Made by a program: the position numbers and the translations under genes
The notes under the pieces: model-generated
Seen by the model: the letters and a program-made list of their open reading frames with translations, nothing else
The model's database searches: none
Told to the model about the DNA's origin: nothing
Assembly: GCA_015063035.1 (NCBI GenBank)
Contig: SUTG01000004.1
Span: forward strand, 1 to 64,000
From: Methanobrevibacter olleyae
GTDB lineage: Archaea; Methanobacteriota; Methanobacteria; Methanobacteriales; Methanobacteriaceae
Reading direction: 5' to 3'
Length of the DNA stretch: 64,000 bases
In this document: one piece after another, positions 4,510-44,883 of the stretch
How the letters are laid out: each line of letters opens with the position of its first letter
Numbering within the stretch: position 1 is the first letter of the stretch

Positions 4510-6720
4510 ATGGCTGATGTAGAACTTAAAATCAAGGTTGCAGAAACATTATCTCAAAAAGATGTAGGTAAAAACATTGCTAAACTAGATATGGAATCTA
4601 TGTTTAAGTTAGGCCTTAAAGATGGAGATTTGATTGAGATTATCGGATCAAAACACACTGCAGCTGTAGCTGTAGCTTCTCAATCTGACATGGAATCTAT
4701 CATTAGGATAGACGGTACAACCCGTAAGAATTCAGGTGCTTCAATAGGTGAGGAAGTTACCATTAAAAGGGCAGAAGCAAAAGAGGCTAAGAAAATAGTT
4801 CTAGCTCCTATTGATGCAAGAATCAGGATTGGTGGAGATTTCAACAGAGCATTCAGAAACCAAGTAATGGTTCAAGGGGACTTGATAAATACTGGTATTA
4901 AAACTCCTCAAAGAAGATCTGTTGGAAGCGGTTTCTTTGATGATATCTTTGATGACATCATGAATGTTCCAGGCATTGGTGCAATGAGCCAAATCAAGTT
5001 GGCAGTTGTAAGCACTAGCCCTGGAGGTGTTGTAAAAGTCGGCCCAAACACTAAGGTTGAAATCAACGAGGAACCAGTAGATGTTTCCAAATTGGAAGGC
5101 GTATCCAATCTTGTAGATATCAGTTACGATGACATAGGCGGTTTAAAGGATGAGGTTAAAAAGGTCAGGGAAATGATAGAAATCCCTCTCAAGAAACCGG
5201 AATTATTTGATAAGTTAGGTATTGCTCCTCCAAAGGGAGTATTGATGCATGGACCTCCAGGTACCGGTAAGACCTTGCTTGCAAAGGCGGTAGCAAACGA
5301 AAGTGATGCTCACTTCATTGTAATCAACGGTCCTGAAATCATGAGCAAATATGTGGGCGGATCTGAAGAAAACCTAAGGGAATTCTTTGAAGAAGCTGAA
5401 GAAAACGCTCCATCCATCATCTTCATTGATGAACTGGATGCTATTGCACCTAAACGTGAAGAAACTCAAGGTGAAGTGGAAAGAAGAACCGTTGCACAGC
5501 TATTGACCTTGATGGATGGACTTAATTCCAGAGGCCAAGTGGTTGTAATCGGTGCAACAAACAGGCCTGATTCCCTTGATGGTGCACTTAGAAGACCTGG
5601 TAGGTTTGACCGTGAAATTGAAATCGGTGTTCCTGATAAGGAAGAACGTAAAGAGATTATGGAAATCCACACAAGAGGAATGCCTCTTGCAGATGATGTT
5701 GACTTGGATGATTTGGCAGATACAACCCATGGATTTGTAGGTGCAGACCTTGAAGCATTGGCTAAGGAAGCTGCTATGAGGGTTGTAAGAAGAATCATTC
5801 CTGATTTAGGTGCTGATGATGAGATTCCTCCTGAAGTATTGGAGAAACTTGTAGTAAGCAAGGAAGACTTCAAGTCTGCACTTAGAGAGATCCAACCATC
5901 TGCACTTAGGGAAGTTCTTGTGCAAGTTCCAAATGTAACTTGGGATGATGTCGGTGGATTGGACGAGGCTAAACAGGAATTGAAAGAAGCTGTAGAATGG
6001 CCTCTCAAATACCCAGACAAGTTCAAGGAATTTGGTGTAAGGCCACCTAAAGGTACCTTATTGTATGGTATTCCAGGTACTGGTAAGACCATGCTTGCAA
6101 AGGCAGTGGCAAACGAAAGTGAAGCTAACTTCATTGCAATCAAAGGACCTGAACTCTTGTCCAAATGGGTTGGTGAGTCTGAGAAAGGTGTAAGGGAAGT
6201 CTTCAGAAAAGCAAGACAAACTGCTCCTACTGTAATCTTCTTTGATGAAATCGATTCAATCGCAAGTTCAAGAGGTGCAGAATCTGGTGATTCTGGAGTA
6301 ACCAAACGTGTAGTAAATCAATTATTGACTGAAATTGACGGTCTTGAAGAATTGGAGGATGTTGCAATCATTGCAGCAACCAACAGGCCGGACATTATTG
6401 ATCCCGGTTTAATGAGGCCAGGAAGATTTGACAGACACATTAAGGTTGATGCTCCAAATGAAGATGCAAGACTTGCAATATTCAAGGTACACACTAAAGA
6501 CATGCCTCTTGCAAAAGATGTCAAGCTTAAGAAATTGGCTAAAAACACTGAAGGATATGTTGGAGCGGATATTGAAGCAGTCTGCCGTGAGGCTGCTATG
6601 CTAGCATTAAGGGATAATATAGAAGCTAGCGAAGTTTCAGCGAAATTCTTCGATGAAGCTATGGAAAAAGTTAAGCCAAAAACTGTAAGTGATGTGGAAG
6701 ATTTGGTCCAATACTACTAA
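4510..6720 (+). CDS. cdc48: CDC48/VCP-type double AAA+ ATPase (VAT)
   Basis: Hexameric unfoldase that extracts and unfolds proteins, probably feeding the proteasome. The product has 736 residues: a double-psi-barrel N-domain (about 1-190), D1 with Walker A GPPGTGKT near residue 247, and D2 with a Walker A near 520. D1 and D2 Walker B appear as IIFIDELDA and VIFFDEIDS, and both second regions of homology (ATNRPD) are present. D2 has GIPGTGKT where most homologs have GPPGTGKT, which still fits the P-loop. The C-terminus Gln-Tyr-Tyr resembles the HbYX tail that docks on the proteasome (inference). I start at the ATG 9 bases after GGAG rather than the in-frame TTG at 4501, which abuts that site. 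Confidence 0.96.
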
Positions 6721-6880
6721 ATTGGGTCAATCCCATCACTTTTTTCCTCCTTAATAAATCATATTCAATCGCTCAATTAAAATTATAAACACACAAATCA
6801 AACAACAAAACACACTATAAATCGAAGTACATTTTTAATATATCATATATGAAAACACTAAAACACCTATAATATATTGT

Positions 6881-6960
6881 AATGGATTAAAGAATGGATT
6901 TTCATACCTTTTATCCAATCTTTAATCCATTTCCTCTGTTTCTTTTTCTTTTTTTTATTA
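6881..6960 (+). terminator. strong hairpin followed by T-rich tract
   Basis: Arms 6881-6893 and 6919-6931 are perfect 13-base complements. After one A-A mismatch the stem continues with TGGAT (6895-6899) and ATCCA (6913-6917) around a 13-base loop. The T-rich run 6932-6960 follows. This fits an intrinsic terminator about 160 bases after cdc48, or the 3' end of a small RNA transcribed from 6740-6880. Confidence 0.6.
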
Positions 6961-34031: not shown

Positions 34032-34352
34032 CTTATATCAAAAATAGATACAAAAATAGTTATAAAATTTGATTATAATCTAAATAATTTTTATAATCTA
34101 TAATTTACCTGCTCTGGAATCAATCCATTTAAATTAAAATAATATCATAAAAGTTTTAAATAAGTTTAAAACCCGCCCATAAAGGTTATTGTTAGTTATG
34201 ATTTTTATAGTATATAAATATTTTTAATATTATAATTTTTATCTAATTTTTATTTTAGTGTATTTAGTTAATTTTTTAAGATATATTTAACATATTTCTA
34301 TTATAATCTTAAATATTTTTAAATATATTTTTAAGATATTTTAAGCATGTTT

Positions 34353-34398
34353 TAATATATTTTTTAAGTAGGTCTTAATATATTTTTTAAGTAGGTCT
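34353..34398 (+). repeat. tandem 23-bp repeat upstream of the amidotransferase operon
   Basis: TAATATATTTTTTAAGTAGG plus TCT occurs at 34353-34375 and again at 34376-34398. Degenerate related phrases lie just upstream (34258-34350). The repeats end about 95 bases before the TATA box. The length of two helical turns fits a repeated operator (inference). Confidence 0.65.
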
Positions 34399-34444
34399 TA
34401 TATATGAAAATATTCTAATATTCCAATATGTTTCCCCTATATCT

Positions 34445-34502
34445 CCGAAAATGTCTTAAAAATTTTCTTACTTTTCGGGTTTGCTACTAAAACATTTAAA
34501 TA
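34445..34502 (+). promoter_or_regulatory. inverted repeat and TATA box of the amidotransferase/gshA operon
   Basis: CCGAAAA (34445-34451) and TTTTCGG (34472-34478) form an inverted repeat with a 20-base centre. TTTAAATA (34495-34502) is the best TATA box and predicts a leader of about 60 bases to the ATG at 34585. Confidence 0.5.
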
Positions 34503-34584
34503 ATGTGAAAAATATAACGATTGTTATAAAACTTTTCATGCTTTAGGGATTTGTTTTATTAAAAAAATGGAAGGAGGTAAAAAA

Positions 34585-35388
34585 ATGTGTGAGCTTTTTG
34601 GATTTAGTTCCTCAAAGGAAGAAGAACTTAATGATTATCTGAGGGAGTTCTATAGTCATTGTGAAGAGCATCCTCATGGTTGGGGATTGGCTATTTTAGA
34701 TTCAGATAAATTCAGTGTGATTAAAGAGCCTGTAAAAGCTCGAAGCAGTGTCATGCTGGGAAATATCTTATTGAATCCAATTGTTTCTAAAAACGCTTTA
34801 GCACACATTCGTTTAGGCACTATTGGTGTGAAGGACTTTTACAATTGCCATCCTTTCGTTAAAAAAGACAATACAGGTAGAAGATGGACTCTTATCCATA
34901 ATGGCACTGTTTTTGACTGTCCTGATTTATGCAAATACAGCACTGAGGAAGAGGGAGAGACAGATTCCGAAAGGATTCTTCTAGCTATTGTTGATTTGAT
35001 AAATAATTTCGAAGCTTTTAAAGGAGAGTCTCTAAGCCTAAAGGAGAGATTCGACATAGTTTCTGACTTGATAGGTTTTATGGCTTTATCCAATAAATTG
35101 AATCTAATTTTTTATGATGGAGAACAGATGTACGTTCACACAAATTATAGAAATTCATTATGCTATTTGAAAACTGAAAATGGCATTTTCTTTTCAACTC
35201 AAGCTTTGGATTCAAATGATTGGAAGGACGTGCCTTTAAATACTGTGATTTCCTTTTCAAATGGGGAATTGTTATTTAAGGCTAAACCTCATTCATTTGA
35301 ATATGTTGAAACTGAAGAGCAGCTTAGCTTTATTGAAAAATTTGCCAACACATTAAATAGCGATGTTGATGAAAAAAATGTTTGGTGA
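34585..35388 (+). CDS. Class II (Ntn) glutamine amidotransferase, EgtC/YafJ-like
   Basis: 267-residue N-terminal-nucleophile hydrolase. The mature enzyme would start at Cys2 (MCELFGFSS). Supporting residues are HPHGWGLAI, HIRLGTIG, and NCHPF followed by LIHNGTV; these are the class II amidotransferase motifs for binding the gamma-glutamyl group. There is no fused synthetase domain. I take the ATG at 34585, placed after AAGGAGGT, since an upstream ATG at 34567 would bury the nucleophile. The glutamate-cysteine ligase gene follows 40 bases later. That is the combination seen for EgtC with EgtA in ergothioneine synthesis, which suggests this enzyme removes gamma-glutamyl from a thiol conjugate (inference). 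Confidence 0.8.
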   Translation: MCELFGFSSSKEEELNDYLREFYSHCEEHPHGWGLAILDSDKFSVIKEPVKARSSVMLGNILLNPIVSKNALAHIRLGTIGVKDFYNCHPFVKKDNTGRRWTLIHNGTVFDCPDLCKYSTEEEGETDSERILLAIVDLINNFEAFKGESLSLKERFDIVSDLIGFMALSNKLNLIFYDGEQMYVHTNYRNSLCYLKTENGIFFSTQALDSNDWKDVPLNTVISFSNGELLFKAKPHSFEYVETEEQLSFIEKFANTLNSDVDEKNVW

Positions 35389-35428
35389 TTGTCTATTATG
35401 ATTTTTATGAAAATGGGGATATGATAGA

Positions 35429-36871
35429 ATGGATAGGATATTCAATTTATCTCAATTGCATAAGCATGCAAGTTCAGAGGATTTAAAGAAAGGATCCTTT
35501 GGTTTAGAATGGGAAGGATTGAGAGTTCGTGGAAATGGAGAGCTCTCACTTAGTCCACACCCTGAAATATTTGGAAACAAGTTATCAAATCCTTACATAA
35601 CAACAGATTTTTCAGAAAGTCAAATAGAGATCATCACTCCTACATTTGATACAATTGATGAGGCATTTTCATTCTTCTCATTCATGTCTGATTTAGTTAA
35701 CAGCTCCTTAGATGATGATGAGTTCTTATGGTTCCAATCATTGCCTTGCATACTTCCAGATTCAAGCAAAATCCCAATTGCAAAATATAAGGGCAGAGAA
35801 TTGGCTGAGGAGTCAATGGAATATAGGAAAGGATTAGCTAAAAAATATGGTCTTAGAAAGCAATTGATTTCAGGAATTCATTTTAACTTTTCATTTAATG
35901 AGGAACTGATAGAGAAATTATATGAAAATTTGGACATCGCTAAGATTGAAAGTGATGGGTATTCTAAGATTTCCTATAAGGAATTTAAAGACATGCTTTA
36001 TCTAAAGATATCAAGAAATTACATTCGTTATGTTTGGCTAATAATATATCTTACAGGCTGTTCTGTTGCAGCTCACGAGACCTTCACTCCAGAATGCACC
36101 AAATTGATGGAGCATAGCGATAATCGGGGAGGGCTTTATAGTGAAAGGGGCCCTTCATTCAGGAATGCATCATGCGGATATAAAAATCTAGAGCATTTAT
36201 ATCCTAGTTACGATTCAGTAGATGAATTTGCTAGAGATGTTCAGTCTTTCATAGATGAAGGCCACCTATCTCAAGCTAAGGAATTATATGCCCAAATCAG
36301 ATTAAAGCCTAAAGATCCAAGTGATCTTCTTTCATCTTTAAAAGATGATGGAATTCAATACCTTGAAGTGAGAACTTTAGACATCAATCCATTTTATAAA
36401 TGCGGTTTAATAAAAAAAGACATGGAGTTTCTTCACCTGTTCCTTATTTATACCTTGATTGCCGAGGAATCCGATTATGAAAATTGGCAAGAGGAGGCTC
36501 TTTACAATGAGGAAATGGCTGCTGAGGCAGCATATGATTATAATATGAAATTGCTTAAAGATGGTGAGGAAATAAGCTTGGAAGAATGGGGATTGAGAAT
36601 TCTTGATGAAATTGATGATATGTGCAGAACCTTAGGCATTGGCAGCAGGTCCCTTATAGATTCAATGAGACAAAGAATTGCAGATCCATCCTTGACATAT
36701 GGAAAAGGCCTCATTAGATTGATTAAAGAAGAAGGGTATATCAACAGTCAAATAAAATTGTCTAAAATCAATAAGATAACAAGCAAGTATCTTTTGGAAA
36801 ATACAAGCTTGCTGGAAGATGAAAGATTCAAGGATTATGTTCCGATTGCTCTTCAAGGTGCTAAAAAATAA
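35429..36871 (+). CDS. gshA: Glutamate-cysteine ligase, E. coli GshA type
   Basis: Makes gamma-glutamylcysteine from glutamate and cysteine with ATP. The 480-residue protein has the GshA landmarks in order: FGLEWEGLRVRGNGELSL with the ATP/Mg glutamates, LSPHPEIFG, NPYITTDFSESQIEIITP, LISGIHFNFSF, and the C-terminal IQYLEVRTLDINPF. E. coli GshA is 518 residues with the same pattern. No glutathione synthetase gene is in the window, so the product may be used as gamma-glutamylcysteine itself, as in haloarchaea. It is the second gene of a predicted operon with the amidotransferase. Confidence 0.88.
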   Translation: MDRIFNLSQLHKHASSEDLKKGSFGLEWEGLRVRGNGELSLSPHPEIFGNKLSNPYITTDFSESQIEIITPTFDTIDEAFSFFSFMSDLVNSSLDDDEFLWFQSLPCILPDSSKIPIAKYKGRELAEESMEYRKGLAKKYGLRKQLISGIHFNFSFNEELIEKLYENLDIAKIESDGYSKISYKEFKDMLYLKISRNYIRYVWLIIYLTGCSVAAHETFTPECTKLMEHSDNRGGLYSERGPSFRNASCGYKNLEHLYPSYDSVDEFARDVQSFIDEGHLSQAKELYAQIRLKPKDPSDLLSSLKDDGIQYLEVRTLDINPFYKCGLIKKDMEFLHLFLIYTLIAEESDYENWQEEALYNEEMAAEAAYDYNMKLLKDGEEISLEEWGLRILDEIDDMCRTLGIGSRSLIDSMRQRIADPSLTYGKGLIRLIKEEGYINSQIKLSKINKITSKYLLENTSLLEDERFKDYVPIALQGAKK

Positions 36872-36900: not shown

Positions 36901-37239
36901 TTAGATTTTAATGTTTTTCATGAAATTAACATGGTCTATGTATTTTCTCAAGACCTCTTCAACGGTTCCTTCATCCTTTACCAATTTTAAGCCAGCATCC
37001 TCTGCATAGATTGCTGCTTTAGGACCGAATTGTTCACATATTGCCACTTCACAGTCTTCAATTGCCTTAATGATCTTTGGATTTTGATGTTTCATATCAG
37101 CTTCAATTTCAACAGTTCTATGGCCAATGAAATCCAATTCATCCTTTTCTTCATAGTATTCGTAAACATATAATGAACTTGCCTTTCCAAAGTGCAAATC
37201 TACATTTTCTCCATCAGTTGAAGCAACAGCTATTCTCAT
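36901..37239 (-). CDS. NifX/NafY-like dinitrogenase cofactor-family protein
   Basis: 112 residues of the Fe-Mo-cofactor-binding-like fold. It starts RIAVASTDGENVDLHFGKA, which carries the family HFG motif, and includes AICEQFGPKAA. These small proteins bind Fe-S or metal cofactor precursors; in methanogens without nitrogenase their role is unclear. The ATG at 37239 follows GGTGACTAAT on the minus strand, so the longer MVTN start is not used. It is convergent with gshA. Confidence 0.8.
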   Translation of the reverse strand: MRIAVASTDGENVDLHFGKASSLYVYEYYEEKDELDFIGHRTVEIEADMKHQNPKIIKAIEDCEVAICEQFGPKAAIYAEDAGLKLVKDEGTVEEVLRKYIDHVNFMKNIKI

Positions 37240-37302
37240 ATTAGTCACCATTTTTTTTTTTTAATTTGAATTTAAGATAAGGGTTAATCCTTTTTCTAAG
37301 GG

Positions 37303-43503: not shown

Positions 43504-44883
43504 TTACATGATTTTTAAGATTTTATAATAAGTATCTGTAGATGGATGAACTTCAAGGAAATCGTCGAAATCCTCTTTTGTTATTCCCATATTCATCAGG
43601 AAAGCAAGATAGGCCGTATCATCAATTGAAGATGGTGATATTTGGCTTGCCCTCACTATCTCTTCTGTTTCAGTGTTTAATGAAACTTTTGTAATGCCTG
43701 TTTCCCCTCTTAAGATTCTCCAAAAGGCATGTGGCCCTCCAATACTTGGAATGATTACATCTTCAATATTTTTGCTGTTATCCTCCTCAGATTTTGATGT
43801 GTTTTGAGTGAAGCTCACATCCAAATCCAATGTCAATGATTGTGGAACTATCATATCCTCGAATTTATTCAGATATCCTGCCATGTTTCTTGCAGCTGAA
43901 ATTCCCTCTTTTCTTGCATATGGAGTAAGGGTGATTCCTCCTGTAACGTCTCCTGCAGCATAGATATTCGGATTTGAGGTTTGGAAGAATTCATTCACCT
44001 TAATTGATCCATCTTCATTCAGGTTCACAATATCTGCAACTATCTCTGAATTAGGAACTCTTCCAGTAGCTATCAATGTTTTTCCTTCAAACTCTCCCTT
44101 GTCGGTTATGATGGAGTTTTCAGTGATTTCCAAAACATTGGTGTTTTCATGGATATCCACTTCATCAATGAGCTTTTTAACCACATAAGACTTGATTTCC
44201 GGTTCTAAATCCTTTAGGATTTCGCTTCTTGCAATGATTTTCACTTCACTTCCAAAGCTTGAGAATAGGTTTGACAATTCGGTAGCAATTATTCCTCCAC
44301 CAACTATATTTAATTTGCTTGGAACTTCCTCCAAGGAAAGTATGTCACTGCTTGTCAAAGCATATTTTGCTCCATCGATATTTGGAATAAATGGTCTTGC
44401 ACCAGTAGCTATCAAAAGATTTTCTGCCTCGTATATATCATAATCCCTATTTTTCACACTTTCTCTTTGAAGTGGATTGTCATTGTCCAATTTAACCTTA
44501 ACTATGATCTTATCATCATCGTTTATTTCCACACTAGCTTCACCATAGATGACATTATTGTTAACGCTTTCATTTTCCTCTTGGTTAAGCTGACGGAGGA
44601 ATAGTTGGGTCTTTTTAATGTTGTCGCATGCAGATTTATAATCCAAGCTTATGCTTCCATCGATAAATCCGATTTCATTATACCTTTTGAAGCTTCTTAT
44701 GAAACGGCTTATGTCAGTAAGTGCACAAACGACCATGCATCCTTCATTAAGACAGGTTCCTGCAATGTATTTCTTTTCAATAAGAAGAGTTTCCTCTCCC
44801 AATTTGCCAAGTTCAAATGATCCAAGTCTTCCAGCAGGGCCTGCTCCAATAACAATGTTTTTTACTTTTTTTATTTCTTCCAT
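43504..44883 (-). CDS. Pyridine nucleotide-disulfide oxidoreductase (dihydrolipoamide dehydrogenase-like)
   Basis: 459-residue FAD flavoprotein. It has the FAD motif GAGPAGRLGSFE at residues 13-24 and the redox disulfide C44-x4-C49 in GTCLNEGCMVV. An extra Cys53 follows directly where dihydrolipoamide dehydrogenases have Ser/Lys. The NAD(P) motif NIVGGGIIATEL, the FAD motif IYAAGDVTGG, and a C-terminal His-Pro (EVHPSTDTYY) complete the fold. The usual catalytic Glu after His-Pro is not present. The substrate is probably not lipoamide, since no 2-oxoacid dehydrogenase genes are here. Reduction of bis-gamma-glutamylcystine made from the gshA product is a testable guess. Confidence 0.82.
   Translation of the reverse strand: MEEIKKVKNIVIGAGPAGRLGSFELGKLGEETLLIEKKYIAGTCLNEGCMVVCALTDISRFIRSFKRYNEIGFIDGSISLDYKSACDNIKKTQLFLRQLNQEENESVNNNVIYGEASVEINDDDKIIVKVKLDNDNPLQRESVKNRDYDIYEAENLLIATGARPFIPNIDGAKYALTSSDILSLEEVPSKLNIVGGGIIATELSNLFSSFGSEVKIIARSEILKDLEPEIKSYVVKKLIDEVDIHENTNVLEITENSIITDKGEFEGKTLIATGRVPNSEIVADIVNLNEDGSIKVNEFFQTSNPNIYAAGDVTGGITLTPYARKEGISAARNMAGYLNKFEDMIVPQSLTLDLDVSFTQNTSKSEEDNSKNIEDVIIPSIGGPHAFWRILRGETGITKVSLNTETEEIVRASQISPSSIDDTAYLAFLMNMGITKEDFDDFLEVHPSTDTYYKILKIM

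Follow-up and report, generated by a model that had tools for sequence, protein, structure and literature searches.

A putative regulated operon for gamma-glutamylcysteine turnover, with a candidate palindromic operator, in gut Methanobacteriaceae

Why would a methanogen encode a glutamate-cysteine ligase directly behind an enzyme of a type that could cut the bond the ligase makes? The thiols usually described in methanogens are coenzyme M and coenzyme B. The two genes lie in a 64,000-nucleotide stretch of Methanobrevibacter olleyae DNA (assembly GCA_015063035.1, contig SUTG01000004.1), referred to here as the window. We consider it somewhat more probable than not (roughly 0.55) that they form a regulated operon for the turnover of gamma-glutamylcysteine (gamma-Glu-Cys), which would be made by GshA and hydrolysed back. 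The following features of the window are relevant:

34352-34397, plus strand: two exact tandem copies of the 23-bp TTAATATATTTTTTAAGTAGGTC (2 exact matches, 0 expected by chance)
34495-34502, plus strand: TATA-box-like TTTAAATA, conserved across seven aligned upstream regions, a putative promoter element
34513-34528, no strand assigned: palindromic operator candidate TATAACGATTGTTATA, one mismatch from the consensus TATAACAATTGTTATA
34585-35388, plus strand: predicted class II (Cys2) gamma-glutamyl amidohydrolase, 267 aa, GATase_4, EgtC/YafJ fold
35389-35428, plus strand: 40-bp junction, a putative deletion scar where relatives hold a plant-type (GCS2) ligase gene of about 1.4 kb
35429-36871, plus strand: glutamate-cysteine ligase GshA of the GshF N-terminal type, 480 aa, PF04262, no GshB domain

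The identity of the ligase is well supported. It matches the Pfam family Glu_cys_ligase (PF04262) with E=3e-90, at 303 bits against a cut-off of 27. Among solved structures, it is closest to the N-terminal halves of GshAB proteins (3ln7, E=6e-59), followed by the Francisella and E. coli GshA enzymes; the "E. coli-type" label of the preliminary description therefore holds for the family and the catalytic set, but not for the closest kin. At only 480 aa and without a C-terminal GshB/ATP-grasp half, the protein is not a bifunctional GshF/GshAB. Residues E27, E29, D60, E67, H151, E313 and R315 are invariant among 13 homologues and, in a profile alignment, fall on E27, E29, D60, E67, H150, E328 and R330 of E. 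coli GshA, which we take to be its metal- and substrate-binding residues. All seven are thus present, as the preliminary description had proposed to check, and since the catalytic residues are kept, the window GshA should be an active ligase. A conserved neighbour downstream of gshA (36901-37251, minus strand) encodes a small dinitrogenase FeMo-cofactor-like protein (PF02579).

This ligase type had also been called uncommon in archaea. That view does not hold for the family concerned: profile searches found GshA in 85 of 139 Methanobacteriaceae genomes, commonly in Methanobrevibacter and Methanosphaera, and a 2020 review (PMC7278568) already notes M. ruminantium M1 and M. stadtmanae as carrying GshA without the GshB part. 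The named records nearest to the window ligase are all Methanobrevibacter, mostly metagenome-assembled genomes (MAGs) from rumen or gut samples.

The upstream gene starts at an ATG at 34585, with an alternative in-frame ATG possible at 34567, and its product begins with Met-Cys, C2 being the nucleophile. It matches GATase_4 (PF13230, E=6e-29), and C2, R76, N106, G107 and D127 are invariant among 20 homologues. An AlphaFold2 model (pLDDT 90) matches the YafJ-like protein 1te5 and all EgtC structures (4zfj-l being those named) with TM scores of about 0.65/0.75 at 16-20% identity in Foldseek; the best solved relative is 1te5, whose function is not known. Cys2, the conserved pocket of Arg, Asn-Gly and Asp, and the EgtC/YafJ fold are all features of class II glutamine amidotransferases/Ntn hydrolases, and the earlier identification of a 267-residue Cys2 enzyme of this class, 40 bases ahead of the ligase, was borne out on both counts. 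The predicted hydrolase accordingly has the invariant nucleophile and the gamma-glutamyl-binding residues expected of its fold. It scores below the EgtC equivalog cut-off (TIGR03442; 50.7 vs 218.65 bits). In G040 (contig C55; L272, about 6250-6930), the hydrolase gene beside an intact gshA is a stop-riddled pseudogene.

Comparison with relatives indicates that the pair was once a trio. In close relatives, the amidohydrolase gene and gshA stand about 1.5 kb apart with an open reading frame of about 466 aa between them, as in G016 (whose ligase is 94% identical to that of the window), G003 and G007. The product of this middle gene is unrecognised by Pfam. It matches the NCBIfam model for plant-type glutamate-cysteine ligase, TIGR01436, with E=4e-18, although its 65 bits are far under the 463-bit cut-off. 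Plant ligase structures are its sole credible sequence relatives in the PDB (plant GCL, E=1e-14), and its AlphaFold2 model, of moderate quality (pLDDT 75), matches the plant GCL 2gwc with TM scores of 0.75/0.80, with YbdK second. Judged by sequence and modelled fold, the middle gene is a divergent plant-type glutamate-cysteine ligase. A phylum-wide search found this ligase in 78 of 152 genomes, none of them outside the family. A plasmid collection yielded only nine distant alphaproteobacterial ligase matches, at about 22% identity.

Profile searches for the hydrolase, the plant-type ligase and gshA across the 139 Methanobacteriaceae genomes revealed how tightly these genes are associated. Hydrolase and plant-type ligase are adjacent in 73 of the 76 genomes that hold both (one of the 76 being the window's own, counted only through a contaminant contig), and all three genes stand in tandem in 53 of the 139. 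Every genome with a close hydrolase (81/81) holds at least one ligase. GshA is the sole ligase accompanying the hydrolase in six genomes, including that of the window, and the plant-type ligase occurs with the hydrolase but without gshA in four, MAG gaps permitting. Each is thus found as the only ligase in some genomes, and the two act as alternative partners of the hydrolase. Distant members of the hydrolase family in G133 and G138 are accompanied by neither ligase, and all three genes are absent from G041. The hydrolase gene directly adjoins gshA in the window, G015, G012, G025 and G026; in genus g12, gshA usually lies away from it.

A second hydrolase/plant-type-ligase pair in the window organism's own assembly (G000 contig C61; L044 1-13001) was rejected as binning contamination. 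This contig is 99.87% identical over 3765 bp, at identical coordinates, to contig C3 of a genus g12 genome (G126). Because contig C61 is treated as contamination, GshA is probably the only such ligase of the window organism.

The same comparison bears on how often the middle gene was lost. The window and G015 both lack it, and because their break points differ, the pattern is consistent with separate deletions in the two lineages. On the marker tree, losses in which the hydrolase gene and gshA were kept fall in at least three separate places. In the complete genome G002 (2,937,203 bp), a frameshift interrupts the plant-type ligase gene (L041 6290-6300); this could reflect either true gene damage or a mistake in the sequence. 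Read in this way, the two genes of the window are left over from an operon of three genes that is common among gut methanogens and has here lost the plant-type ligase. The proposed check on conserved neighbourhood was upheld, as the genes stay together in the family, often with the plant-type ligase between them. The pairing with GshA is likewise kept well beyond the window's own genome, but the commonest neighbour of the hydrolase is the ligase that the window no longer has.

The region upstream of the operon provides evidence of common regulation. The preliminary description placed tandem 23-bp repeats in the promoter. These repeats exist, but they are absent from all six aligned relatives and were rejected as a promoter element; they are a local oddity, probably without function. 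The elements conserved across seven upstream regions are the TATA-like box and, after it, a palindrome of 16 bp, TATAACAATTGTTATA, which lies at 34513-34528 in the window. With up to one mismatch and within 200 bp upstream, the palindrome precedes 24 of 30 hydrolase genes in the family, against a background of 2 in 532 ORFs, counted over the window and 800 kb of G002; one of these two is the window's own hydrolase site. The operator is missing from four of the 30 hydrolase genes examined; all four are from Methanosphaera (genus g12) and have glutathione-peroxidase-like genes nearby instead. The palindrome also precedes standalone gshA genes (L120, L132) and a standalone plant-type ligase gene (L121); no close match was found before the standalone ligase genes of L106, L114, L271, L272 and L130. 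Elsewhere, often with two mismatches, it stands before genes for FdhD, ThiF/MoeB-like proteins, LarE and NMT1-like ABC substrate-binding proteins. Sites outside the window include:

L126, 9182 and 10853; L131, 10978; L043, 3319; L264, 9813; L123, 5399: palindromes preceding FdhD, ThiF/MoeB-like and LarE genes
G002, 323409: before a pyridoxamine-kinase-like gene (identified by eye)
G002, 328806: before a copper-type P-ATPase-like gene (identified by eye)
G002, 33853: part of a double site, 33822/33853

As these scattered chromosomal genes share one rare palindrome, the sites suggest that a single regulator controls sulfur, thiol or metal handling, and the set can be regarded as a candidate archaeal sulfur regulon.

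Whether the ligase product would be carried on to glutathione depends on a second enzyme. The GshF-type GshB domain (PF18419) is absent from all 139 genomes. Searches with the generic GshB domain (PF02955) gave short or weak matches only, that in the window's own genome spanning 63 of the 175 positions within a frame of 415 aa, and these look like other ATP-grasp proteins. Glutathione synthesis in these genomes is therefore unlikely, as far as such searches can tell. The genome-wide search for EgtD or GshB that the preliminary description called for thus came back empty for EgtD above its cut-off and for PF18419, and left only the weak PF02955 matches.

These observations can be combined into a model of turnover. 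It builds on the identity of the genes, their catalytic residues, the conservation of operon and operator, and the lack of EgtD and of the tested GshB-type domain. GshA would join glutamate and cysteine at the expense of ATP, and in cells without glutathione synthetase gamma-Glu-Cys would be the end product, available as a low-molecular-weight thiol or as cysteine kept in protected form. In most relatives, the plant-type ligase would act as a second ligase within the operon. The Cys2 amidohydrolase would then hydrolyse gamma-Glu-Cys, the corresponding disulfide or an S-conjugate at the gamma-glutamyl bond, releasing glutamate and cysteine (or a cysteine adduct), much as yeast Dug2-Dug3 does with glutathione. 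A regulator bound at the palindrome, which lies downstream of the TATA box and ahead of the start codon, would switch the operon together with the sulfur-transfer genes, in response to a signal that is probably sulfur, cysteine, metal or redox state. Which substrates are used, which way each step runs and what signal is sensed are the parts of this model that we infer. It is supported by the operator common to the operon, standalone ligase genes and the FdhD, ThiF-like, LarE and NMT1-like genes. Against it stands an early survey, cited in PMC7278568, in which five unidentified methanogens yielded neither glutathione nor gamma-Glu-Cys.

If one operon both forms and breaks a single bond, ATP is spent to no purpose, which also speaks against the model unless the operon is regulated (a cysteine store drawn on demand) or the real substrate is a conjugate (detoxification); one or the other is to be expected. 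The simplest reading is that both ligases feed one hydrolase-linked function; the presence of two families in one operon, however, also raises the possibility that one of the enzymes acts on another amine. More tentatively, we propose that gut Methanobacteriaceae possess either a regulated cysteine store-and-release cycle or an undescribed gamma-glutamyl-derived thiol, based on two interchangeable, unrelated ligases, one hydrolase and a palindrome-binding sulfur/metal regulator.

Several side enzymes were considered as further parts of such a system. A gene for a flavoprotein resembling glutathione reductase (GR) and lipoamide dehydrogenase (43504-44883, minus strand), with the motif GTCLNEGC, is found in 135 of the 139 family genomes. 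A role as dedicated disulfide reductase is unsupported, as the gene is there whether the cassette is present or not; it was used as the single-gene marker for the tree. Glutathione peroxidase (GPx) was rejected as a member of the operator regulon, no palindrome being found before the four GPx genes examined. On the marker tree, GPx presence follows the hydrolase (12 independent pairs, 7.0 the same way and 0.2 opposite, median p=0.016), a result that comes from a single-gene tree and from one among several trait pairs compared; the corresponding test of gshA against GPx was not significant (median p=0.125). This association, together with adjacency in genus g12, is suggestive of a link to oxidative stress. 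In genus g12 (L044 1843-3541, L122, L124, L125), the hydrolase belongs to a conserved block of neighbours that includes a protein-ADP-ribose hydrolase (macrodomain)/SIR2-like pair, one or two glutathione-peroxidase-like genes and a flavodoxin-like gene. Genes for O-acetylhomoserine sulfhydrylase and a cysteine-synthase-like protein share a region with the hydrolase/plant-type-ligase pair in one genome of genus g13 (L129).

Other functions have to be weighed against turnover of gamma-Glu-Cys. In the manner of EgtA and EgtC, the gamma-glutamyl group could serve for protection: a ligase would add it to cysteine or another amine, a further enzyme would modify the product and the hydrolase would free a sulfur compound. 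The modelled EgtC fold of the hydrolase speaks for this possibility, two ligase families would make sense with different amine substrates, and the operator-sharing FdhD, LarE and ThiF-like proteins are sulfur-transfer enzymes. It is nevertheless doubtful, as no tailoring enzyme lies consistently inside the operon in the loci compared, the six genomes with GshA alone and the four with the plant-type ligase alone show that no fixed two-ligase pathway is needed, and EgtD exceeds its cut-off in none of the 139 genomes.

Scavenging is slightly less likely again. Here the hydrolase would degrade glutathione or gamma-glutamyl peptides from feed, host or microbes for their cysteine, and GshA would be independent of it. 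The fungal glutathione-degrading Dug3 is of the same Pfam type (class II glutamine amidotransferase), rumen or gut MAGs account for most of the named records found for homologues, and the operator also precedes NMT1-like ABC substrate-binding genes. Scavenging leaves unexplained, however, why the hydrolase always occurs with a ligase and adjoins one in nearly all genomes, and no peptide transporter is linked to it in the loci read.

A general YafJ-like glutaminase or amidotransferase role for the hydrolase, with no metabolic meaning in its closeness to ligases, is improbable: 1te5 is its best solved relative and the distant members in G133 and G138 lack both ligases, but such a reading fits poorly with the 73/76 adjacency across several genera, the way the hydrolase gene came to abut gshA once the middle gene was lost, and the common operator. 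Ergothioneine synthesis can practically be dismissed, since EgtD (TIGR03438) was above its cut-off in 0/139 genomes and the hydrolase, despite its EgtC-like modelled fold, scores far under the EgtC cut-off; the ergothioneine-type EgtA/EgtC analogy of the preliminary description fails with it, although the broader pairing of a ligase with an EgtC-like hydrolase is sustained by their linkage through operon and operator and by the intact catalytic set.

If gamma-Glu-Cys turnover is correct, rumen Methanobrevibacter and Methanosphaera, the organisms making most ruminant methane, would possess a second thiol economy, and the common palindrome makes a regulator of archaeal sulfur-transfer genes findable. 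The three-gene cassette, the repeated ligase loss and the common operator were not found in the literature searched, a scope that excluded most subscription journals.

How does the proposed operon compare with known systems? Methanosphaera and Methanobrevibacter have already been reported to possess GshA but not GshB (PMC7278568), and the GshF N-terminal domain/GshA of these genera (3ln7, 3ln6) shares family and catalytic residues with the window ligase; a linked hydrolase, a second ligase and an operator are not described in the passages of that review consulted. The third gene of relatives has the fold and conserved core motifs of plant/alphaproteobacterial glutamate-cysteine ligase (TIGR01436, 2gwc), but at about 20% identity, and it is absent from the window; in the comparisons made it resembles plant GCL rather than the actinobacterial ligase. 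Mycobacterial EgtA/EgtC likewise combines a gamma-glutamyl ligase with a class II Cys2 hydrolase of the same fold, but the genomes studied here lack EgtD and the hydrolase is only 16-18% identical to EgtC in Foldseek alignments. The yeast Dug2-Dug3 glutathione amidase, compared by Pfam type, has a class II glutamine amidotransferase domain whose substrate is a gamma-glutamyl thiol (Kaur 2012, cited by PMC9012958), whereas no glutathione synthesis was found in the methanogens here. The haloarchaeal system combines GshA, with only 15% identity to E. coli GshA according to PMC7278568, with a bis-gamma-glutamylcysteine reductase. No dedicated reductase can be assigned here, the GR-like gene being kept also where the cassette is absent; the likeness lies in that GR/lipoamide-dehydrogenase-like protein and in archaea without GshB that would use gamma-Glu-Cys as a thiol.
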